Shown: positions 18,271-28,703 of the stretch, piece after piece
Position numbering within the stretch: the stretch's first letter is position 1
How the letters are laid out: each line of letters starts with the position of its first letter
Assembly: GCF_034259325.1 (NCBI RefSeq)
Contig: NZ_JAXIVS010000006.1
Location: forward strand, 186,001 to 250,000
Direction: 5' to 3'
Length of the DNA: 64,000 bases
Source of the DNA: Hyalangium ruber
GTDB taxonomy: Bacteria > Myxococcota > Myxococcia > Myxococcales > Myxococcaceae
Translations under genes and position numbers: made by a program
The notes under the pieces: model-generated
Databases searched by the model: none
Told to the model about the DNA's origin: nothing
What the model saw: only the letters and a program-made list of their open reading frames with translations

Positions 18271-18864
18271 CTACGGACTCGGGGGGGGCTGGACCGAGAT
18301 GCGGTAGGTACAGGCGTGGCCATCGTAGTGCGCGATGGTCACCTGGAACTTGCCCTGGCCGAGGTGCTTGAGGATCGCGCTCATGATGCCGAGCGTGATC
18401 TCCGGGAAGCGGCCCACCTCGTTGACCCAGACTTCATAGAGGTCGCGGTTGATCTCGCGCACCTCGGTCTGAACGAAGTTGTTCGCGTTGCGCCAGGCGC
18501 GCGAGAGCCGATCGAGGGCCATCTTCACGCTGAACAGCCGCATGGCGGCGAGCGTCGCGCGACCGACGAGCGTCCGCGTGAAGGCATCCACCTGCAGCTC
18601 GCCCAGCGCCCGCAGCGCCACCTCTTGAGGGACCCCGCGATAGAGGCGCTGCGCGGCCACCTCCATGCACTTCTCCAGGACCTCCATGGGGTAGGCGGGC
18701 AGCAGCGGACGCGACAGGTCGAGCCCCACATCTCGCAGCGCCTGCTGGAGCTCCGGAGTCACCCTTCCCGCGAGGACCTCGTTGAAGAGCCTGTCGAAGG
18801 TCTGCCCGAAGACCAGGTGGGGCGAGGCGGTGTCTGTCGCGGTGAGGCTCATCGCTGCGGCCAT
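18271..18864 (-). CDS. DUF2378 (TIGR02265) myxobacterial paralog-family protein
   Basis: 197 residues, mostly helical. It begins with LVFGQTFDRLFNEVLAGRVT and contains LPAYPMEVLEKCMEVAA and RLFSVKMALDRLSRAWRNAN, ending in a beta-rich QVTIAHYDGHACTYRISV. This matches the DUF2378 family, which is expanded in myxobacteria and has no known biochemical function. It starts 5 nt after the stop of the shortest AAA+ protein and is the last gene of that operon, so a role with those ATPases is likely (inference). Confidence 0.85.
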   Translation of the reverse strand: MAAAMSLTATDTASPHLVFGQTFDRLFNEVLAGRVTPELQQALRDVGLDLSRPLLPAYPMEVLEKCMEVAAQRLYRGVPQEVALRALGELQVDAFTRTLVGRATLAAMRLFSVKMALDRLSRAWRNANNFVQTEVREINRDLYEVWVNEVGRFPEITLGIMSAILKHLGQGKFQVTIAHYDGHACTYRISVQPPPSP

Positions 18865-18869
18865 GATAA

Positions 18870-21170
18870 TCAGGCTTCGAGGATCGTCGCGAGTACGCGT
18901 GACTCGGGCCTCAATCCCCGCTCGGCCTCGCTTCCGGCCACGACCACCGGTAGGATCGCGTCCTCCAGCCGGGCGTCCGCCGCGAGCCTGACCGCGATGG
19001 GTGCCATCACCTTCGCTTCAATGAGGCGCTTGAGGGGGCGGGCGCCCAGCTTCGGGTCATTGCCGTGCCGTGCCAGCCAGGCCCGCGCGTCCGGCTCCAC
19101 CACCAGCCGCAGTCGGCGCCGCAGCAACCCCGCCCGCGAAGCCGCCTTCTCCAGCTCGAGGTCGACGATGCGCAGCACGTCCGCCTCCGCCAGCCGGCGG
19201 AAGGGGATGACATGGTCGATGCGGTTGAACAGCTCGGGCCGGAACGCCTGGCGGACCGCGCGTAGGAAGTCTCCCGAGCCGCGCTCGGCCCCGTAGCCCA
19301 CCGGCTCCGACTGCTCGACGCCGAGGTTGCTCGTCATGCAGATGACCGTCATCCGGAAGTCGACCCGCCGCCCCAGGCTGTCGGTGAGGCGGCCCTCGCC
19401 GAGGATTCCGAGCAGCAGATCGAAGATCTCCGGGTGCGCCTTCTCCAGCTCGTCGAAGAGCACGAGTGACAGCGGCTGTTGCCGCACCCGCTCGGCCAGG
19501 CTGGTGATGCCCGGCCCCACCTCCATCAGCCGCTGCGCCGAGCCGGGCAGCATGTACTCGGACATGTCGAGCCGGATCATCCGCTCTTCGTGGCCGAAGA
19601 GCGTGCGCGACAGTTGCTTGGACAGCTCTGTCTTCCCCACGCCCGTGGGGCCGACGAACAGCAGCGTGCCTACCGGCTTGTCCGGATCATTGAGGCCGGC
19701 CTTGAACCGCGCGAGCACGCCCGCGGCCAGCTCGCAGGCGCGATCCTGGCCGATGACTCCCTGCGCGAGCTGTGTCGTGAGCGTGCCCTGCTCGGCGGGG
19801 ATCTCGTCACTGATGAGCTGCAGCGGCAGCCCGGTGTAGCGCGCGTAGGCCTCCGAGGCATCGCGCGGGTAGAGCGTTCGGGTCTTGCCGCGCTCGGCCT
19901 GCTGGTCCAGCCAGTCCATGAAGCGGAAGGCCTTGCCCGGGAACAGGCTGTCGCGCTGGAACATCTCCAGGTGCCCGACGACCTGCCGCAGGCCCATGGG
20001 GTGCAGGTGTACACGGCTGCGCCGGGTCTCCTGGTAGCGCCGCATCAGCTCCGGCACCTGCGAGGTGGCTGGCTCCTCCAGGCGGATGATGCGGAAGGGA
20101 CGCAGCGCCTCGGGGAAGCGCCGTTGGCAGCGCTCCAGCTCACCCTCGGTACACTCGGCGATGAGGGAGATCTCCTCGCTCATCACCGCGGGCAGGAGCA
20201 GATCTCCAATCGAGGAGCCGTCCGGCTGGGGGGCCAGGATCGAGGTGAGCCGATCGACGTAGAGGTAGTCGTTCTCGAACGAGAGCGCGTCGACGATCTG
20301 CAGGCAGCGCTCCTGCCACATGCCCAGGTACACCATGCCGGCGACGATTCGCTCGGCGCTGGTGCGCCAGATCTTCGGAAAGTGCTTCTCCTTCTCGTCG
20401 CGCCGCTTCTCCGAGAGCCAGCGCGCCAGCTTCAGCACCCAGCTCGTCTTGCCCACCCCCGGTCCTCCCACGAGGAGGATCGAAGCGGGCGGCTGGCGCA
20501 GCACGAAGGCGCGCCAGTCCTCCATCGGAGCGCCGTCGTAGACCAGCGGCAGCGCCCGTCCGCTGCGCGCGCGCGAGGTCAGCTCCTCGCCGATCGCTTC
20601 AAGCACTGGCGGGGCGGGCTCCTCGTCGGAGTGGGGCCGCTCGGCCTGTCGCAGCCCTCCCGGATCCCAGCTGTGTACGAACTCCTCGCCCTCGTGGCGG
20701 AAGTCATAGAGGCCCTGCGGCTGCTCGCCGAGCAGGGCAGTGGTGAGCGCGTGCTGGAGCACCTCGCGCGCGATGGACAGCTCCTCGAGCACGAACGACC
20801 AGCCAAAGCGAGGCACCAGGACACGGTAGGCGCCGGACTCCAGCTTTCCGTAGACGTACGTGAGCTTCAGCGGCACCAGCGCCTTGCCAATCACCGGCCG
20901 CTTCTTGTGTACCGTCTGCGGATGGACCTCCACCGTGAGCGTGCGCGCCTGCAGGGACTCTTCCCACAGGAACCGGTTCAGCATGGAGGCATCGTCCATC
21001 ATCAACTGCCGCACCCGCGCCTCGAGCTGCGCGTAGACCTCGGCTTCGCTGGCGCCATACGCGGACGGGGCAGGGGCGTCGAAGAGACTCTCCCATACCG
21101 GCAGCAGCCGGCCCGTGAGCCTGCCGTCGTGGTGGGTGGTGAAGTAGACGCGAAGGCTCTTGTCGCTCAT
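18870..21170 (-). CDS. ClpA/B-like AAA+ ATPase, paralog A (766 aa)
   Basis: N-terminal region 1-225 unlike ClpB's N-domain. First AAA+ module: Walker A GGPGVGKTS (~235-243), IVAGMVYLGMWQERCL at the D1 pore-loop position, and a Walker B reading YLYVDRL, lacking the catalytic Glu. Second module: Walker A GPTGVGKTE (~507), Walker B LVLFDELEKAHP (~569), sensor-1 MTSN, arginine finger FRPELFNRID (R650) and sensor-2 GARPLKR (R711). The GYVG pore loop normally between MSEY and the second Walker B is replaced by PGSAQRLMEVGPGITSLAE. ATG 21170 overlaps the stop of paralog B. It has no C-terminal extension. Confidence 0.85.
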   Translation of the reverse strand: MSDKSLRVYFTTHHDGRLTGRLLPVWESLFDAPAPSAYGASEAEVYAQLEARVRQLMMDDASMLNRFLWEESLQARTLTVEVHPQTVHKKRPVIGKALVPLKLTYVYGKLESGAYRVLVPRFGWSFVLEELSIAREVLQHALTTALLGEQPQGLYDFRHEGEEFVHSWDPGGLRQAERPHSDEEPAPPVLEAIGEELTSRARSGRALPLVYDGAPMEDWRAFVLRQPPASILLVGGPGVGKTSWVLKLARWLSEKRRDEKEKHFPKIWRTSAERIVAGMVYLGMWQERCLQIVDALSFENDYLYVDRLTSILAPQPDGSSIGDLLLPAVMSEEISLIAECTEGELERCQRRFPEALRPFRIIRLEEPATSQVPELMRRYQETRRSRVHLHPMGLRQVVGHLEMFQRDSLFPGKAFRFMDWLDQQAERGKTRTLYPRDASEAYARYTGLPLQLISDEIPAEQGTLTTQLAQGVIGQDRACELAAGVLARFKAGLNDPDKPVGTLLFVGPTGVGKTELSKQLSRTLFGHEERMIRLDMSEYMLPGSAQRLMEVGPGITSLAERVRQQPLSLVLFDELEKAHPEIFDLLLGILGEGRLTDSLGRRVDFRMTVICMTSNLGVEQSEPVGYGAERGSGDFLRAVRQAFRPELFNRIDHVIPFRRLAEADVLRIVDLELEKAASRAGLLRRRLRLVVEPDARAWLARHGNDPKLGARPLKRLIEAKVMAPIAVRLAADARLEDAILPVVVAGSEAERGLRPESRVLATILEA

Positions 21171-24100
21171 GGCGCCACACTCCCGTCCGCCGGGTTCTGG
21201 GTCATTCGCAGCCGCCACAGGGCGGGCAGGGCCTCCCCGGGAGACCGCACCCGGTGGCTGCCGCTGTAGGTGAGCAGGTAGTCATCGAGTTCCAGCACCG
21301 ACACGGCATCCGGGCGGGTGGGGGGCTCGAAGCGGTAGGCACGCATCACCGGGGCGGCTGCCTCGGGGTTCTCGGGCAGGGGGCGGGTGCCCTCCTGGCG
21401 CGCCTTGTGGAAGGCCTGGAGCTTCGCTTCGTGCTGGGTGATGAGCGCCAGGGGCTCCGGGGCGGACTCCTCGTACACTCGCACCTTGACGATCTCCGGG
21501 AGCCGTCCCGAGGACTGCCAGACGTGCAGGCCGGCCTCTCCCTCGAAGAAGGGGCGCACGCCGGGCCCCACCTTCTTGAGCACCAGGTGTACGGGCTCCA
21601 TGCCCAGGCGCAGCATCTCCGACAGTTGCCCGTAGCCACCCGAGACGAGTGTGCCGTCGGACATGCGCGCGGCGAAGCTCTCGAACTCGCCTCGTGCGTG
21701 GGCATAGGCCTCGCAGAGCCACCGGGTGAGCAGCGAGCCGGAGTCCCCACCCTGCCGCCACTGGCCCAGGGGCAGCAACTCCAGGGTGACGACGTGCTGA
21801 TCGGAGCGGGAGAGCTCCCGGAGGATGCGCTGCAGGAAGTAGACCTCCGAGAGGGCGTCGAGCATCTGTTCGCGGGAGACGACGCGCACCGGCTCGAACG
21901 CCCGCCGATCGAAGAGCCGGACGCGCTGGCCTTCGGAGCGGCTGTGGGGCTGGGGGCGCCGCTCCAGGACGCCGAAGTGCTCTACCTCGATCATCTCCCG
22001 GGCTTCCTCCTCGGGTGCCCGGGCAAGGGCCTCCAGCTGGGCCGCGAAGTTCTCCAGGTGCAGCCGCATCGCGTCCAGCGTGTAGAGCGACTCGGCATGG
22101 TCTCGCTCGCCGGCTTGTAGCCGCTCCAGGTGGAGGCGGACCTGCTCGGAGAGCGCGCCCAGGTTCTCGCTGTGCCGCATGTGCTGCACCTGCTCGCGCG
22201 CCTCGAGCACCTTTTCGCGCAGCTTCGCCACCGGCAGGGACAGGAGGGGCTCGAGCGCGAAGCCTTCGAGCGCGGGCTCTCGGGGGACCAGCGCGTCGGC
22301 CTGCACCTCGAAGCGGCCGTCCCGGGTGTAGAGCTGGAACAGCCGCATCAGCGCCTGAGGCCCTCGGATGATGGCCTCGGAGAGCACCTGCCCGACCTTC
22401 TCCTCCAGGTAGCGCTTGAGCGGGCGCGCGCCCAGGGTGGCATCGAAGGCCTCCGCGACGATGCGCCGCTTCACCGCGTCATCGGCGGACACGAAGATGT
22501 TGCGCGACGTCAACCCACGACGCGCCAGCAGCCGCGCCAGCTCCTTCTCGACGACCTTCTCCCCCGACTCCCGCGAGAGGGGCGAGAAATGCACGATGCG
22601 GTCGATGCGGTTGAAGAGTTCGGGCGGGAAGAACTCGCGCACGGCGCGGTCGGAGTCGAGGGCCACCGAGCGCGCGTCCTGCTCGCCGATGCCCACCGCC
22701 GGTCGCTGGCGGGCTCCGAGGTTGCTGGTCATCACGATGACCGTGTGCGTGAAGTCGGCGGTCTCGCCCGAGGCATCGGTCAGCCGGCCTTCATCGAACG
22801 TCTGCAGCAGCAGGTTGAGCAGCGCAGGGTGCGCCTTTTCAATCTCGTCGAGCAGCACGAGGGTGAAGGGTTGCTCGCGGATCTGGCGTGTCAGGCGGCC
22901 CTCGGGTTGCCAGGCATCCCCGGTCAGACGCGCCACGGCATCCGGAGTCTGGAACTCGGCCATGTCGAGCCGCACCATGCGCGAGTCATCTCCGTACAGG
23001 TAGCTCGCCAGGGCCCGCGCCAGCTCGGTCTTGCCTGTTCCCGTGGGGCCGGTGAACAGGAAGACGCCATAGGGTCGCCGGGGGTCGGTGAGCCCGGCGT
23101 GGATGCGCACGATGAGATCGCACGCCACCGCCACCGCCTCCGACTGACCCATGACCTTTCGAGAGAGCGCGGTGCGCACCTCGTCCGGCTCCAAGCGCTT
23201 GCCGGGATGGAGCAGGAAGTCCGGCAGGCCCGTCCTTCGGGAGAGGTGCTCGAAGAGCATGCCGACATGCACATGTCGGCCGGTGCCGCCGTAGTCCACC
23301 GCCAGCTCTCGCAGCAGATCGAGCGCCTTGCCCGGCAGCGCGGCGCCCGCGAAGAGAGAGCCGGCCTGTTCGAGCAGGGCCGGGAAGAGCGGAGGCGCCC
23401 AGATGACGCCGTGGCGGCCCTCCAGCTCCCGGGCCTCGTGCAGCAGCATCCGCAGCGTCTCGTCGGCGCTGGTGGGCCGCACGTGCAGTTGCGTGAAGAG
23501 CGCGGCGAACGAGGGGGCGTCGGTCTCCAGCCGCTGGAGCTGCTCCGGCGTCACCGTGCCCACGAGGGTGATTTCCCCGCGTGCCAGGGGCCCCTGGAAG
23601 AAGAGGGCGAGGTTGGCGTCGCTGTCGCGCGAGCGGCCAATGCGGCCGAAGGCGTGCAGATCCTCGATGAAGAGGATGCGGCGCCCGCCCCGTGAGTCCT
23701 CGAGCAGCTTCAGACAGCGCTGCTCCCAGTCGCCCACGTAGCTCATGCCGGCGATGATGCGCTTGCCGGCCAACGCCCAGACCTCGGTGACCTTGTCCAG
23801 GTTGCGGTGGCTCCGGAAGTCCTCGGCCTCGAGCTGCTCGGCGACGAAGCGCCGAAGCAGGGTCCGCTTGCCAGAGCCCGGCGGGCCCACGAGGAGCACC
23901 GGAGTGCGTCGCTCTCCGCCGAGGAGCAATTGGAGCTGCTCGCGGTAGGGGCTGCGCGGCATGCCGGTGTCGAGCGCGCCCTCCGCCGCCTGGACGGTCA
24001 GGTTGGTGCCCAGGTTGCCCAACACCTGGTTCCCTCCCTGTTTCTGTTTCTTCTTCTTGCCGGGTCGATCGTCCAGCTCGAGATCGTCCCAGGGCCCCTT

Positions 24101-24640
24101 CTTCTTGCCCAGCTCGTCGAGCAGCGACTTCGTCCGGGCCACGAACGAGAGCGCGGTGAGGCTGTCCTTACGGCTGGTGCGCAGCTCCTCGTGCTCGTAC
24201 GCCTCCAGCCTGGCCCAGGTGCGGGTGAAGAAGGCCTTCGCCTGGTCTTCCAGGCCCTGCTCGGGATCGATCGGGAACCACTCGTCCTGGCGAAGGGGAT
24301 GGTAGGCGATCGTCAGGGGCTCGGCGCGCGTGCGCCAGCGCGGTTCGAGGATCAACGGGAAGACGCCGGACAGCCGCCGTGTCTCGGCGCCCGCCTGTAC
24401 CCGCTTGAAGTCCAGCTCGAGCCGCACCCGCTCCAGGCGGATGCCTCGCGGCAGCTGGAAGTAGGACAGCTCGCGGATGGGCAGCTCGCCGAGGGCGGTC
24501 CGCAGCTCATCCACGAGCTTGCGCTGCAGCTTCACCGTGTTCTTGCCCGTGCGGCTGCGGGTATGTGGGCCCAGCGCGAGCGTCGTCCAGCGCAGACCGG
24601 AGGACTCCCGGCTCTGGTAGATGGCGATGGTGAGGTTCAT
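21167..24640 (-). CDS. ClpA/B-like AAA+ ATPase with PCRF-like C-terminus, paralog B (1157 aa)
   Basis: N-terminal region 1-235 (beta-rich, then a Lys-rich linker). First AAA+ module: P-loop reads GPPGSGKRT (~252-260), so the usual Thr/Ser after GK is Arg; Walker B reads ILFIEDLH. Second module (~485-760): GPTGTGKTE, LVLLDEIEKAHP, MTSNLG, FPPELFNRID and GARPLKR intact; the GYVG loop is replaced by GDAWQPEGRLT. A coiled coil follows (~800-880), then a domain (~945-1055) with the spacing and the GEAGLHVWQ motif of release-factor PCRF domains, and ~100 more residues. No GGQ domain. ATG 24640 overlaps the stop of paralog C. Confidence 0.85.
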   Translation of the reverse strand: MNLTIAIYQSRESSGLRWTTLALGPHTRSRTGKNTVKLQRKLVDELRTALGELPIRELSYFQLPRGIRLERVRLELDFKRVQAGAETRRLSGVFPLILEPRWRTRAEPLTIAYHPLRQDEWFPIDPEQGLEDQAKAFFTRTWARLEAYEHEELRTSRKDSLTALSFVARTKSLLDELGKKKGPWDDLELDDRPGKKKKQKQGGNQVLGNLGTNLTVQAAEGALDTGMPRSPYREQLQLLLGGERRTPVLLVGPPGSGKRTLLRRFVAEQLEAEDFRSHRNLDKVTEVWALAGKRIIAGMSYVGDWEQRCLKLLEDSRGGRRILFIEDLHAFGRIGRSRDSDANLALFFQGPLARGEITLVGTVTPEQLQRLETDAPSFAALFTQLHVRPTSADETLRMLLHEARELEGRHGVIWAPPLFPALLEQAGSLFAGAALPGKALDLLRELAVDYGGTGRHVHVGMLFEHLSRRTGLPDFLLHPGKRLEPDEVRTALSRKVMGQSEAVAVACDLIVRIHAGLTDPRRPYGVFLFTGPTGTGKTELARALASYLYGDDSRMVRLDMAEFQTPDAVARLTGDAWQPEGRLTRQIREQPFTLVLLDEIEKAHPALLNLLLQTFDEGRLTDASGETADFTHTVIVMTSNLGARQRPAVGIGEQDARSVALDSDRAVREFFPPELFNRIDRIVHFSPLSRESGEKVVEKELARLLARRGLTSRNIFVSADDAVKRRIVAEAFDATLGARPLKRYLEEKVGQVLSEAIIRGPQALMRLFQLYTRDGRFEVQADALVPREPALEGFALEPLLSLPVAKLREKVLEAREQVQHMRHSENLGALSEQVRLHLERLQAGERDHAESLYTLDAMRLHLENFAAQLEALARAPEEEAREMIEVEHFGVLERRPQPHSRSEGQRVRLFDRRAFEPVRVVSREQMLDALSEVYFLQRILRELSRSDQHVVTLELLPLGQWRQGGDSGSLLTRWLCEAYAHARGEFESFAARMSDGTLVSGGYGQLSEMLRLGMEPVHLVLKKVGPGVRPFFEGEAGLHVWQSSGRLPEIVKVRVYEESAPEPLALITQHEAKLQAFHKARQEGTRPLPENPEAAAPVMRAYRFEPPTRPDAVSVLELDDYLLTYSGSHRVRSPGEALPALWRLRMTQNPADGSVAP

Positions 24641-27600
24641 CGCTTCACCTCCCGCACCGCGTCGAGCTCGAAGGAGAAGAGGCCCTCGCGGTCCAGGCCG
24701 CCTGCCAGCTCGGCGAGGGAGATGTGCGCGAGCAGGATGAGCTCGAGGTCTTCGAAGTAGTTCCGTCCATTGAGCGTCATCACGCGCGCCCCACCGCACA
24801 GCGCGAGCAGCCCGTCGGCGCGGTGCTCACGTGCGGCTGGCATGATGCGCAGCTGCTTGAGGGTGGACGTCGCCCAAGGGCTGACCGCGGGCTGCGCGAG
24901 CTCCTTCGGGGACAGGCTGCTGCGCATCGCCACCGGCTTGACGGTGAACATGAGCGGGCCTTCCTTCTCTCCCGTTCCCTCGAAGCGATGCAGCCCGGCC
25001 TCGAGCGCCAGGAACACTCCCGCATTCGCTCCCTGCACCGAGAGCAGCAGCTCGCGGAAGGGACGCTCGGGCGCGGTGAGGGCTCTGCGCAGGGCCTCGG
25101 CCCCGAGGGGCTCGCCCCATTTGCGCCGGCGCTCGCTGCTCTTGCTGGTCTCCAGCGGCCGGGCCTCGACATGCCACCGGCGCCGCAGTGCATCCTCCAG
25201 CAGGGGGAGGAGCCAGCGTTCCAGGGCGCGTCCCTCGTCAGCCTCCTGGAGCACCAGGGTGATGTCGTCCCGCCTCGGCAGCATCGCGAGCAATACCGAG
25301 GGCATCCGCCGGTTCAAGGCCTGGAGCTGTTCGCGGGCGTCGCTGACGAAGGGCTCGACGTCCTGCTGTTCGAACAGCGCCATCAACGCCAGCTCCTCGG
25401 CGGCCACCAGCGCCGCGTGCAGCTTCTGCACCTGCGCCCAGAGTCCATCGAGCCGGTGGTGCTCACTGCGCAGCATCGCTACCGAGGCAGCGCCGGGCCC
25501 TCGCTCGTCCCGCTCTCCTTGGGAGAGCTGCGCCACCAGGAAGGCGATCTGCTCCTCGAGCTGCACCACCGCGTCGAGTCGGAAGAGCGCGTCCACGGTC
25601 CGCCGGTCCGTCTGCAGCTCCGTCACCTGTTCGAGCTGGTTGCGCGCCGCGCGAGGGCTGCCCTTGTGCAGCTCCACCGCGAGGACTCCCTCGCGCAGGG
25701 AGATGTCCACGCGTCCGCCCTGCGCATCTCGCCCCGCGGCGGACAGCGCACGCGCCACGGGGACGACGAGGTGTTGGTCCAGGTGCCTGCGCATGGCTCG
25801 CGCGCCATAGGCTTCCTGGTACCCGGAGGTGGCCAGGGTGGCGGTGACCTCGGGAGGGACCTCCAGGGTGATTCCTCGCTGGAGCAGGCCGCGCCGCTGG
25901 CCGAGCTTCTCCACTCCGAGCCGCGCCACTTCCGCTACTTGCTCGGAGGTGAGTGCGTGGAAGGGGATGATCTGATCGATGCGGTTGACCAACTCGGGCC
26001 GGAAGTGCCGGTGTACTTCGCGCAGGTAGTGGGAGGAGTCGTCCACCGCTGTCGCGCCGATGCCCAGCGGAGTGCGGCGATGAGCCGCCCCGAGGTTGCT
26101 GGTCATGATGATGAGGGCGTTGTGGAACCAGGCCGTGCGTCCGCGAGCATCCGTGAGCCGCCCTTCGCCGCACACCTGGAGGAGCAGGTCGAAGACAGCG
26201 GGGTGGGCCTTTTCGATCTCATCGAGCAGGAGCACGCAGAAGGGCTGCTGGCGCACGCGCCGGGTGAGCAGGCCCTCTCCCTGCTCGTTGCCACGGATGA
26301 GGCGCTCGGCGGCCCAGCCGTCCATGAACTCGCTCATGTCGAAGCGGAACAGCCGCTCCGGCGAGCCGAAGAGGAAGGTGGCCAGCAGCCGCGCCAGCTC
26401 GGTCTTTCCCACGCCGGTGGGGCCGACGAAGAGGAAGGTGGCCAGCGGTTTGCCCTGCGGTTGCAGCCCGGCCTTGACCATGCACAGCGTCTCCACGACG
26501 CGGCGCACCGCCTGCTCCTGGCCAATGAGCTGGCGGCGGAAGACAGCCTCCACGTCCGAGGCGAGCAGCGCGCGGTCCTCGCGCAGCAGGAACTCGGGGA
26601 CGCCCGTCTTCAGGCTGAAGAGCGAGTAGACCTTCTCGCGGGTGAGCATGGGCACCTTGCCATCGCCGGTGCGCTCCTGCTGGACGCCTGCCCGCATCTC
26701 CTCGTACAGCCGCACGGCCTTGCCCGGCAGCGCGCGGCTGGGGAGGTAGCGCTCCGCCAGGTCCACGAGCGGCTCCACCGCGTCGTCGGCCAGCGTCGGC
26801 CGCGAGGACTCCTCCTTCCGCTGCCAGGCCACCCGCGCTCTCAGGGCCTCGGAGGTCTGTCGGGCGCTGAGCGGCTCCAGGCGCACGCGCGTGAGCGCGG
26901 CGAAGAGGGCGGGTTGACGGCTCTCCAGCAGGTCGAGCGACTCGGGGGCGAGCTCGCCCAGGAATCGGACCTTGCCCTCCTCCAGGAAGGGCTTCATCGC
27001 CCCGGGCAGGTCGATGGACTCCGTGGAGTGTTGTGCGAGCAGCTCGCCCAGGTTCTCGAAGTAGAGGATGGCGTCCAGGTCGTGCGCCGCCCGCATCACC
27101 CGCAGCACGCGCTCCTGCCACTGGCCAAAGCCGGACATGCCCGCGATCAGCCGCGAGCCGCTCGTGGCATAGACCCGCCGCTCACGCCCAGCCTTTCGCT
27201 CGGCGCGCAGCCACGCGGTGAGCAGCTCCGTCTTGCCCGCCAGCTCCGGCCCGACGAGCAGCACGCCCTGCCGCTTCTCGCCGCTGAGCAGGTTCGCCAG
27301 CAGCGCCAGCTCCGTGTCCCGGCCGATCAACGGAGGGCCGCGTTTGGCCTCGTTGCGCTCGTGCAGCACCGTGGAGACGGAGAGGAGCACCTCGTGCGCC
27401 TGATCGCGCTTGAGCTTCTCCTGCTGCCGCTTCCGGGCCTGCCGGGCCTTCTCGCCGAACGCGTCCTGGCGCCGGAGCTTGAGCTGCACGGTCTCCAGCG
27501 CCACCGACTTCGGCGGCAGCAGCCGCAGGTACTCGTGGGAGTTGGGCTCGCGCGCGGTGAGGATCCGCTCCACATCCGCGCGAATGGCCTCGAGGACGTC

Positions 27601-27987
27601 CTGGTTGCGCGCCACGTAGACCGTGTGGTCCAGCGCGGGGACGAAGGCCCAGGTCTCCTGGGGCAGGGGAACGATGACCGCGGCCAGCTCCAGGGTGGTC
27701 GGCTTGAAGAGGCGCTTGGGCAGGTCGGCGCGCGGCGCCAGCACCTCGATCATCTCGATCCGTACCTGCTCGGGCAGGGAGAAGCGGGCGAGGATCTCCG
27801 GCTCCACCCGCGACAGGTGCTCTTCCAGGAAGAGGCGCTGCTCGGCCAGGCAGGCCTCCCGGGTGGGCGCGTGGCTCGTCATCGCGGGCGCGGCGACAGG
27901 GAACGCCTGGTGGTCGCCGTTCCACAGTTGCTGGCAGAGCAGCGGGGTGGCGAAGTCGAGGGTCCCGGCGACGTCGGAGGAGGCCAT
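24637..27987 (-). CDS. ClpA/B-like AAA+ ATPase with PCRF-like C-terminus, paralog C (1116 aa)
   Basis: First gene of the operon. N-terminal region 1-215, with a helical linker (~175-212). First AAA+ module: GPELAGKTE (~246), LIAGMSGFGQWQERVL, and Walker B ILYFENL, lacking both acidic catalytic residues. Second module (~478-750): GPTGVGKTE, VLLLDEIEKAHP, IMTSNLG, FRPELVNRID and GARAMRR; the pore loop is replaced by IRGNEQGEGLL. Helical coiled coil ~780-895, then a PCRF-like region ~905-1020 with DDITLVLQEADEGRALERWL and LLSVQGANAGVFLALEAGLH. It diverges from the secretin-N gene at 28047; the operon promoter should lie in that gap. Confidence 0.85.
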   Translation of the reverse strand: MASSDVAGTLDFATPLLCQQLWNGDHQAFPVAAPAMTSHAPTREACLAEQRLFLEEHLSRVEPEILARFSLPEQVRIEMIEVLAPRADLPKRLFKPTTLELAAVIVPLPQETWAFVPALDHTVYVARNQDVLEAIRADVERILTAREPNSHEYLRLLPPKSVALETVQLKLRRQDAFGEKARQARKRQQEKLKRDQAHEVLLSVSTVLHERNEAKRGPPLIGRDTELALLANLLSGEKRQGVLLVGPELAGKTELLTAWLRAERKAGRERRVYATSGSRLIAGMSGFGQWQERVLRVMRAAHDLDAILYFENLGELLAQHSTESIDLPGAMKPFLEEGKVRFLGELAPESLDLLESRQPALFAALTRVRLEPLSARQTSEALRARVAWQRKEESSRPTLADDAVEPLVDLAERYLPSRALPGKAVRLYEEMRAGVQQERTGDGKVPMLTREKVYSLFSLKTGVPEFLLREDRALLASDVEAVFRRQLIGQEQAVRRVVETLCMVKAGLQPQGKPLATFLFVGPTGVGKTELARLLATFLFGSPERLFRFDMSEFMDGWAAERLIRGNEQGEGLLTRRVRQQPFCVLLLDEIEKAHPAVFDLLLQVCGEGRLTDARGRTAWFHNALIIMTSNLGAAHRRTPLGIGATAVDDSSHYLREVHRHFRPELVNRIDQIIPFHALTSEQVAEVARLGVEKLGQRRGLLQRGITLEVPPEVTATLATSGYQEAYGARAMRRHLDQHLVVPVARALSAAGRDAQGGRVDISLREGVLAVELHKGSPRAARNQLEQVTELQTDRRTVDALFRLDAVVQLEEQIAFLVAQLSQGERDERGPGAASVAMLRSEHHRLDGLWAQVQKLHAALVAAEELALMALFEQQDVEPFVSDAREQLQALNRRMPSVLLAMLPRRDDITLVLQEADEGRALERWLLPLLEDALRRRWHVEARPLETSKSSERRRKWGEPLGAEALRRALTAPERPFRELLLSVQGANAGVFLALEAGLHRFEGTGEKEGPLMFTVKPVAMRSSLSPKELAQPAVSPWATSTLKQLRIMPAAREHRADGLLALCGGARVMTLNGRNYFEDLELILLAHISLAELAGGLDREGLFSFELDAVREVKR

Positions 27988-28046
27988 GTGGCCCTCATCC
28001 TATGACGTCATTCCCTGCCATGGCAGGAACGCTACACTTCCGGCTC

Positions 28047-28703
28047 ATGCGCTCCCTTTCGTGGCTTCTGCTCTGCCTGCTCCTCCTCCCCCTGCCCGCG
28101 AGGGCCGCGGAGCCCGCGGTGCAACTGGCCCCGGGCGCGCAGACGGTGCTCGACTTCACTGGCATCCGCCGCATCGCCGTCGCCAACCCGGACGTGGCGG
28201 ACGTGAAGGTGGTGGGCAAGACGCAGCTGCTCATCGTCGGCAATCGCCGCGGTCGCACCGCCCTCACGGTGTGGACCGACAAGGGGGAAGTCCAGCGCAC
28301 CCTCGTGGTGGAGCCCCCTCGGGTAGAGGAGTTGGCCCGGGAGCTGAAGGCCCTCGGCTTCTCCTCGCTGGAGGTTCGCCCCATCGGTGATCAGGTCGTC
28401 GTCGACGGGCAGGTGGAGTCCTTCCAGGATCTGAAGATGCTGCGCCAGGCCGTCGCGGGGCTCTCCTATGTGAAGCTCCTGGTGCGGGTGGATGCCCAGG
28501 TCGTCCAGGCGAGCCTCACCGTCACCGCCGAGCAGATCAACGCCGCCTTGAAGCGCAACGGCATCACCTCGGCCACGGCCGTCGTGGTGGGCCGGCGCAT
28601 CCTCCTGGAGGGCTCCGTCACCGACGAGGCCGAGCGCGACAAGGCCCAGCGCATCGCCGACTCGTTTTATGAGGAACTCAAAGGGTCCATCGGCCCACAG
28701 TGA
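28047..28703 (+). CDS. Secretin N-terminal-like (CpaC/pilus N) and BON-type secreted protein
   Basis: About 218 residues: signal peptide MRSLSWLLLCLLLLPLPARA; a domain with FTGIRRIAVANPDVADVKVV and LIVGNRRGRTALTVWTDKGE, typical of the N-terminal domain of pilus/secretin proteins (Pfam T2SS-T3SS_pil_N); then a BON/secretin-like repeat (LEVRPIGDQVVVDGQVESFQ) and a second such strand set (ATAVVVGRRILLEGSVTDEA). No secretin pore domain is present, so it may be an accessory or pilotin-like protein (inference). Start 28047 is chosen because it opens a clean signal peptide; ATG 28020 is possible. Confidence 0.75.
   Translation: MRSLSWLLLCLLLLPLPARAAEPAVQLAPGAQTVLDFTGIRRIAVANPDVADVKVVGKTQLLIVGNRRGRTALTVWTDKGEVQRTLVVEPPRVEELARELKALGFSSLEVRPIGDQVVVDGQVESFQDLKMLRQAVAGLSYVKLLVRVDAQVVQASLTVTAEQINAALKRNGITSATAVVVGRRILLEGSVTDEAERDKAQRIADSFYEELKGSIGPQ

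Follow-up and report, generated by a model that had tools for sequence, protein, structure and literature searches.

Why should a Clp-type ATPase end in what looks like part of a peptide chain release factor (RF)? The question is raised by three adjacent minus-strand genes, C, B and A, in a stretch of 64,000 nucleotides (the window) from the 10.77-Mb genome of Hyalangium ruber, each of which encodes a double AAA+ ATPase. An earlier note on this DNA, made from the letters alone, had seen behind the ATPase parts of B and C a region resembling domain 1 and the PCRF domain of RF1 and RF2, and had proposed a machine for translation quality control or ribosome rescue. As set out below, the C-terminal region of C can firmly be traced to RF2 by sequence profiles, that of B is probably of the same kind, and a third fusion in the same genome, here called E, carries an RF2-derived module that is unmistakable by its alignment. 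The genes and their parts, with D1 and D2 denoting the first and second AAA+ rings, are as follows.

24637..27987, minus strand: gene C, 1116 residues, ClpA/B-type double AAA+ ATPase with an RF2-derived C-terminal module
27343..27987, minus strand: C N-terminal region, residues 1-215, in which Pfam finds no known domain
25723..27342, minus strand: C D1-D2 AAA+ rings, residues 216-755 (approximate bounds), D1 Walker B degenerate (FEN), D2 intact
25285..25665, minus strand: C helices resembling RF domain 1, residues 775-901 (approximate), from structure model comparison
24691..25278, minus strand: C RF domain 2 (PCRF core) and degenerate domain 3/4 region, residues 904-1099 (approximate), without GGQ or SPF
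21167..24640, minus strand: gene B, 1157 residues, double AAA+ ATPase of ClpA/B type whose RF-like C-terminal module is more diverged
24023..24640, minus strand: N-terminal part of B, residues 1-206, in which no known domain was found
22355..24022, minus strand: AAA+ rings D1 and D2 of B, about residues 207-762, with a degenerate Walker B (IED) in D1 and an intact D2
21809..22231, minus strand: B helices resembling RF domain 1, residues 804-944 (approximate, low model confidence by predicted local distance difference test, pLDDT)
21344..21802, minus strand: B core resembling RF domain 2, residues 947-1099 (approximate)
18870..21170, minus strand: gene A, 766 residues, also a double AAA+ ATPase and the third of the operon, lacking an RF module

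The C/B and B/A junctions are ATGA start/stop overlaps; read in the order C-B-A, the three genes form a translationally coupled operon. All three products are two-ring Clp/Hsp100 proteins by Pfam (AAA_2 and ClpB_D2-small), and the NCBIfam models of ClpA and ClpB match them with scores far under the equivalog cut-offs. Beyond the AAA+ part, B and C continue for about 380 and 360 residues, respectively, which AlphaFold models as helices followed by an alpha/beta region, and A has no such extension. The N-terminal regions of A, B and C gave no mutual match by hhalign (Prob 0.2, 0.2 and 4.1).

The RF-like strings that had been quoted for C are present at residues 907, 935 and 981, and the likeness that they suggested is borne out by its relatives. 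Pfam PCRF matches all 14 close C orthologs at an E-value of 1 or less (best 7.3e-5) and is the sole Pfam family common to them, weak matches to QWRF, Hemerythrin and Rootletin being discounted as coiled-coil or chance. Neither Pfam nor NCBIfam was matched significantly when the C-terminal regions of B and C from the window were searched as single sequences, and a profile of the 14 close C orthologs matched only two RF1 chains in the PDB (E-values 0.054 and 0.057). More distant relatives of C comprise a Myxococcus type, so labeled after the genus coded g19, which we take to be Myxococcus, and an intermediate type. Among three Myxococcus-type C modules, one lies above the PCRF cut-off (30.1 bits), one below it (18.6 bits) and one has no PCRF match; prfB is the sole NCBIfam match in all three, and a single module of this type gave no match in the PDB. 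Two of the four intermediate modules (L170-L173) exceed the PCRF cut-off of 24 bits (28.5 and 24.5) and two fall below it (21.1 and 21.6). A profile built from 14 rows covering all C types can be aligned with an RF2 profile (Prob 96.6, E-value 5.2e-10), and the best 21 of its 24 PDB matches are RF2 chains (best E-value 1.9e-8). With the distant C types added, the derivation of the C-terminal region of C from RF2 is firm. C types of Myxococcus and its relatives also retain the DLRT motif.

Structure prediction points the same way. When the AlphaFold model of the C C-terminal region (mean pLDDT 59.6, from a five-row alignment) was compared with the PDB by Foldseek, ranks 1-24 were all release-factor entries (best E-value 3.8e-5). 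A VIA comparison superposed 254 residues of the model on Escherichia coli RF2 (1gqe) with a Z-score of 10.0 at 6.8 Å, unrelated helical bundles lying close in Z; 24 of the 50 rows listed were release factors, the others being helical bundles at similar Z. Intermediate C types carry in addition an insert of about 30 residues between the RF strands (for example in L173:2853-4052, minus strand) that resembles the C-terminal domain of ribosomal protein bL12. With the cut-off at 25.9 bits, it scores 25.7 in L173 and 14.8 in L170, whose module matches bL12 chains in the PDB at E-values of 0.05-0.45 alongside RF2 at 3e-4. Motifs of this kind are known also outside ribosomes.

The module of B has drifted further: B and its relatives gave no direct PCRF or RF2 match in any sequence or profile search made, and there is next to no alignment between the B and C modules (Prob 5 and 7). 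Its profile link runs to E, with which hhalign aligns 50 columns around GPGV..F..GEAGLH (Prob 84, E-value 7e-6). The B model (mean pLDDT 47.6, again from five rows, with two stretches of the domain-2 core at 67-81) retrieved release factors at all of ranks 1-19 in Foldseek (best E-value 7.3e-5), and VIA superposed 87-96 core residues on RF1 and RF2 chains at 2.8-4.2 Å, 40 of the 50 rows listed being release factors and the best Z-score, 7.5, lying under the level that the tool regards as safe. Whole-chain template modeling scores of the B and C models to the top-ranked release factors are only 0.18-0.34. Taken with the profile link to E, the model makes it probable that the C-terminal region of B, too, is RF-derived; the claimed likeness of B is upheld by structure and by profile and fails for PCRF itself, which matches 0/14 members. 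For C and B alike, the top Foldseek ranks went to release factors and not to another fold.

Gene E was reached through a weak match of B (E-value 6.8e-4) in G137, a genome of another family of the order. There a 1067-residue frame contains AAA_2, ClpB_D2-small and PCRF (48.6 bits, cut-off 24), matches prfB at an E-value of 1.1e-21 and aligns with RF2 chains of the PDB at about 3e-15; a further short alignment, at the RF2 C terminus, is weak when taken alone. A PCRF search of the H. ruber genome itself returned the ordinary RF1 and RF2 genes on contig C9, both of which keep GGQ, a third match (64.9 bits) in E on contig C7 and one further match below the cut-off. E lies at C7:465386-468223 (L057:7387-10224) inside a 967-residue frame, starts almost at D1, and comprises both rings with the RF2 module at its end.

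The E module is matched by PCRF in 21/21 E proteins scanned, and hhalign of an E profile against a profile of 12 RF2s gives Prob 99.8 and an E-value of 1.5e-28 over RF2 columns 13-357. In the 8 of 21 E rows viewed in alignment with the genome's own RF1 and RF2, the GGQ and SPF loops are gaps; a domain-4 segment after the switch region, R-x-Y...V-E-D-P-R-T-G, is kept and is among the most conserved parts of the 21. Across 20 other genomes, E modules are 46-85% identical to the own-genome copy, and their invariant positions are distributed over domains 1, 2 and 4. By these alignments E is unmistakably an RF2-derived module on a Clp motor, its homology reaching the RF2 C terminus (domain 4) with the GGQ loop excised. 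Both elements first proposed for the modules, domain 1 and PCRF, are found, and in E the homology goes further, into domain 4.

In release factors SPF reads stop codons and GGQ releases the peptide. The observation that no GGQ domain follows in B and C holds across their close orthologs: the GGQ string is absent from A, B and C of the window and from the C-terminal regions of the 14 B and 14 C proteins (0/14 each), and occurs in one of 21 E proteins, off position (L093); no SPF is present in A, B or C of the window. B, C and E are without the GGQ peptide-release and SPF stop-codon motifs and, judged by these two motifs, their modules are not release factors.

The motor in front of the module is diverged in a consistent manner. 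D2 Walker A and B, arginine finger and sensor 2 are intact in the rows of A, B, C and E viewed, and D2 Walker B is kept in 14/14 sequences of each of A, B and C. The acid pair of D1 Walker B, which reads IDE in seven Clp controls, is replaced by VDR or VDK in A, IED or VED in B, FEN in C and IRD or VRD (once LRD) in E, and all 15 Myxococcus-type and intermediate rows likewise combine an intact D2 Walker B with a replaced D1 pair. The Clp/Hsp100 two-ring architecture is present by these motifs, and D1 chemistry is doubtful. After D2 sensor 1, an IGF-type tripeptide (loose pattern) is found in 13/14 A, 14/14 B, 14/14 C and 7/7 E rows viewed; it is shared with controls taken by eye for ClpA, unlike two taken for ClpB, and may serve ClpP docking. 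At the place of the D2 pore motif, window-type B and E have a Trp-containing loop, which Myxococcus-type B does not.

In a D1-D2 tree all seven controls lie together on one side (100/98), and A, B and C make up a single group (95/95); with other rows, six controls group at 100/100, A-B-C of both types at 92/95, and B with its Myxococcus counterpart at 84/83. The trees do not settle the placement of the A and C orthologs of both operon types, and a long-branch warning applies; control row ctl_L008, which is E itself, was left out of both. Because of these groupings, a single origin of E and A-B-C is compatible with the data. By architecture, A, B, C and E belong to a diverged Clp/Hsp100 subgroup.

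The distribution of the fusions was read from 96 genomes of the same family and 99 others of the phylum. E modules, counted at an E-value of 5.7e-46 or better, occur in 86/96 family genomes and in 1/99 others (G137); 79 of these 87 lie in frames of at least 700 residues, and the other eight, in frames of 126-489 residues, were taken for contig ends or frameshifts. C-type modules are found in 53/96 family genomes, 14 as close relatives and 39 through a Myxococcus-type C module, without overlap, and in 27/27 g19 genomes; for B-type modules the counts are 14 and 36 of 96. The order C-B-A recurs in the window and 13/13 close loci and also in the five Myxococcus-type loci read. A contig scan with the B alignment gave four loci, all from this myxobacterial group, and the close-relative hosts include Archangium lansinium, A. 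violaceum Cb vi76, Hyalangium versicolor and one Myxococcaceae metagenome-assembled genome. A 948-residue frame with PCRF in G156 was rejected as a fusion, since it is a normal, GGQ-bearing RF2 that happens to lie within a long frame. By tblastn the E module has matches of 22-32% on plasmids (best 30 of 34 records) and phages (best 20 of 33); those annotated are peptide chain release factor 2, and many are unannotated. A defense role of A, B, C and E was set aside because their PADLOC matches (best DolB, E-value 1e-26) are confined to the AAA+ parts.

Around the operon, one further gene follows on the same strand.

18271..18864, minus strand: gene D, TIGR02265-family protein, directly downstream of A

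Since gene D has no BLAST match in the 13 orthologous C-B-A loci, it probably lies outside the conserved unit. On the other side, the first ATG of C is only 14 bases from that of a divergent plus-strand open reading frame at 28002-28703 (interval 27987-28002), by eye similar to the N-terminal part of a pilus-assembly/secretin protein, so that one of the two starts may be called early or the promoters may be intragenic. Downstream of E in its own genome lie an RNase J-like and a RimO-like gene, named by eye.

A hint of function comes from Myxococcus xanthus DK1622, for which a transcriptomic study describes MXAN_4823, MXAN_4824 and MXAN_4825 as one operon of Clp ATP-binding subunits (PMC6617876). 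In chloramphenicol all three rise, with log2 fold changes of 3.57, 2.67 and 2.61 in cm8h and of 1.47, 2.17 and 1.92 in Cm5_36h (PMC6617876). Each of five g19 genomes has one adjacent Clp triplet, the Myxococcus-type C'-B'-A', and three of the five have another Clp gene at a distance of 5-6 kb; because a triplet and an extra Clp gene at that distance fit, MXAN_4823-4825 and MXAN_4832 were matched to C'-B'-A' and the nearby Clp gene. Such further Clp ATPases lie at L157:17696-19834 and L159:16718-19411 (minus strand). MXAN_4832 is described as a clpC said to influence development and sporulation, and a study of DK1622 ClpX and ClpP counts eight clpA/B/C copies, which are less conserved. Searches of an open-licence library brought up no report of an AAA+-RF fusion, and a word search of the main text of a 2019 survey of release-factor evolution gave no word beginning Clp or myxo; both halves are known, and their combination appears to be undescribed.

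What, then, might the module do? Our first choice, put forward tentatively, is that in C, B and E a degenerate RF2 would serve to bring a Clp/Hsp100 motor to ribosomes. The RF2 fold (helical domain 1 and the 2/4 superdomain) has been retained and its SPF and GGQ working loops lost. The module would dock the ring at or near the RF binding site (the A site or the GTPase-associated center), independently of the codon and without peptide release. Driven mainly by D2, the ring would then pull on or remodel a ribosome-bound polypeptide or factor, possibly passing it on to ClpP. The C-B-A paralogs would probably assemble into a mixed ring, to which C and B each contribute their own kind of diverged RF module and A contributes none. 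A bolder reading, less likely than not, makes these proteins a single-polypeptide bacterial counterpart of a Cdc48-type ribosome quality-control motor, in which a codon-blind, release-dead RF2 would target ribosomes and stuck material would be extracted or dismantled; it would come in two forms, the near family-wide E and a mixed-ring C-B-A presumably induced under chloramphenicol block.

A targeting module is favored over a release factor because fold and motor are kept and both ribosome-acting loops are cut out. Ribosome docking is preferred on three grounds that point to translation, namely the RF2 segments still conserved, the insert resembling bL12 and the response to chloramphenicol. The RF2-derived tail itself suggests that the motor is directed to ribosomes, most likely during translation trouble. 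Taken alone, the docking of the motor on ribosomes by a dead RF2 module is an evenly balanced proposition; the role in translation quality or ribosome rescue proposed at the outset is plausible.

Several observations weigh against ribosome docking. RF likeness is weak in the modules of the window itself (the C sequence by itself reaches PCRF at an E-value of 0.13, under the cut-off, and PCRF matches no B member), and their ribosome-binding surfaces may be gone. The bL12-like insert is listed in two of four intermediate C types (not in L171 or L172), and the window's C lacks it, having a different insert at that place. The canonical pore motif GYVG is missing from D2 of A, B and C (0/14 each) and from E, so that threading may be weak. 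Conserved neighbors of C-B-A were sought and none found; those of E are not conserved either, the RNase J-like gene recurring in 4/20 other E loci. The equation of MXAN_4823-4825 with C'-B'-A' is presumed from operon layout rather than from the DK1622 sequence. Another Clp gene, MXAN_4832, is also up in chloramphenicol (1.19; PMC6617876), and the authors interpret the rise as an unfolded-protein response (PMC6617876).

A strong rival to ribosome docking, although unlikely when judged by itself, is that the RF2 fold was repurposed as a protein-protein adaptor or oligomer clamp of the Clp machine without ribosome contact, the ribosome-facing loops having been lost since the partner is no longer the ribosome. 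Such a history would account for the disappearance of both ribosome-acting loops from B, C and E, for a B module without sequence-detectable likeness to RF2 and for neighbor genes without a consistent translation link. It agrees less well with the post-switch RF2 segment of E, which is among its most conserved parts, with the DLRT kept by Myxococcus-type and related C, and with the bL12-like insert of some C types and the chloramphenicol induction, both of which point to translation.

Improbable, in our estimate, is a dead-RF decoy or hibernation factor, in which several inert RF2 mimics displayed by the ring would, while translation is arrested, obstruct the A site or titrate partners (RF3, PrmC or bL12) and the AAA+ part would serve removal or recycling and not client unfolding. 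For it speak the precedent of Balon (PMC10901736), the induction of the presumed counterpart by a ribosome-inhibiting antibiotic (PMC6617876) and a D2 pore loop without the canonical aromatic motif; yet a D2 Walker B kept in 14/14 sequences of each of A, B and C, together with an IGF-type loop kept in 13, 14 and 14 of 14, would be superfluous for a mere decoy, and A is a motor without any module. That the proteins are general stress disaggregases or ClpP-coupled unfoldases whose RF-derived tail is a functionless relic is very unlikely, for although the presumed operon rises with another Clp gene in chloramphenicol (PMC6617876) and the modules of B and C in the window have eroded strongly, the E modules are 46-85% identical across those 20 genomes with invariant positions in three domains.

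Returning to the ribosome-directed motor, several consequences would follow if the module does dock on ribosomes. The body of a release factor would guide a bacterial AAA+ motor to the translation apparatus, a pairing otherwise known, to our knowledge, only as separate proteins in eukaryotes. Myxococcus would offer a genetically accessible system for the fate of stalled ribosomes besides tmRNA, ArfA/B and RqcH, and a release factor would be seen to lose catalysis and decoding and still be retained. Even with a non-ribosomal partner, RF2 as a Clp targeting domain would be a new use of the fold.

Compared with RF2 itself (prfB; PF03462 PCRF, TIGR00020), the C and E modules show homology over domain 1 and PCRF/domain 2, which extends to domain 4 in E and, by eye, in Myxococcus-type C; unlike RF2, the modules of C, B and E sit behind two AAA+ rings and lack GGQ and SPF. 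With ClpA, ClpC and ClpB (Hsp100), the proteins share the D1-D2 arrangement, ClpB_D2-small, intact D2 motor motifs and a ClpA-like IGF-type tripeptide, but no Clp N-domain was found, D1 Walker B is degenerate, GYVG is lost, an RF-derived module of 300-380 residues is added at the C terminus, and the tree separates the group from the seven Clp controls. PrfH, ArfB/ICT1 and C12orf65 are bacterial-type RF paralogs that act outside normal termination and keep the GGQ catalytic domain, which the C, B and E modules have lost. Closer in logic, though only by analogy, is the hibernation factor Balon, which is a release-factor homolog without codon-reading or GGQ motifs that nevertheless occupies the A site (PMC10901736); it belongs to the unrelated aeRF1/Pelota family, has no AAA+ part, and its ribosome binding is demonstrated, whereas here it is predicted. 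The eukaryotic Cdc48-Vms1 system of ribosome-associated quality control likewise pairs an AAA+ motor with a release-factor-family protein, again by analogy; there the two are separate proteins, the aeRF1-family Vms1 interacting with CDC48, whereas in the myxobacterial proteins motor and bacterial RF2 module are joined in one polypeptide.

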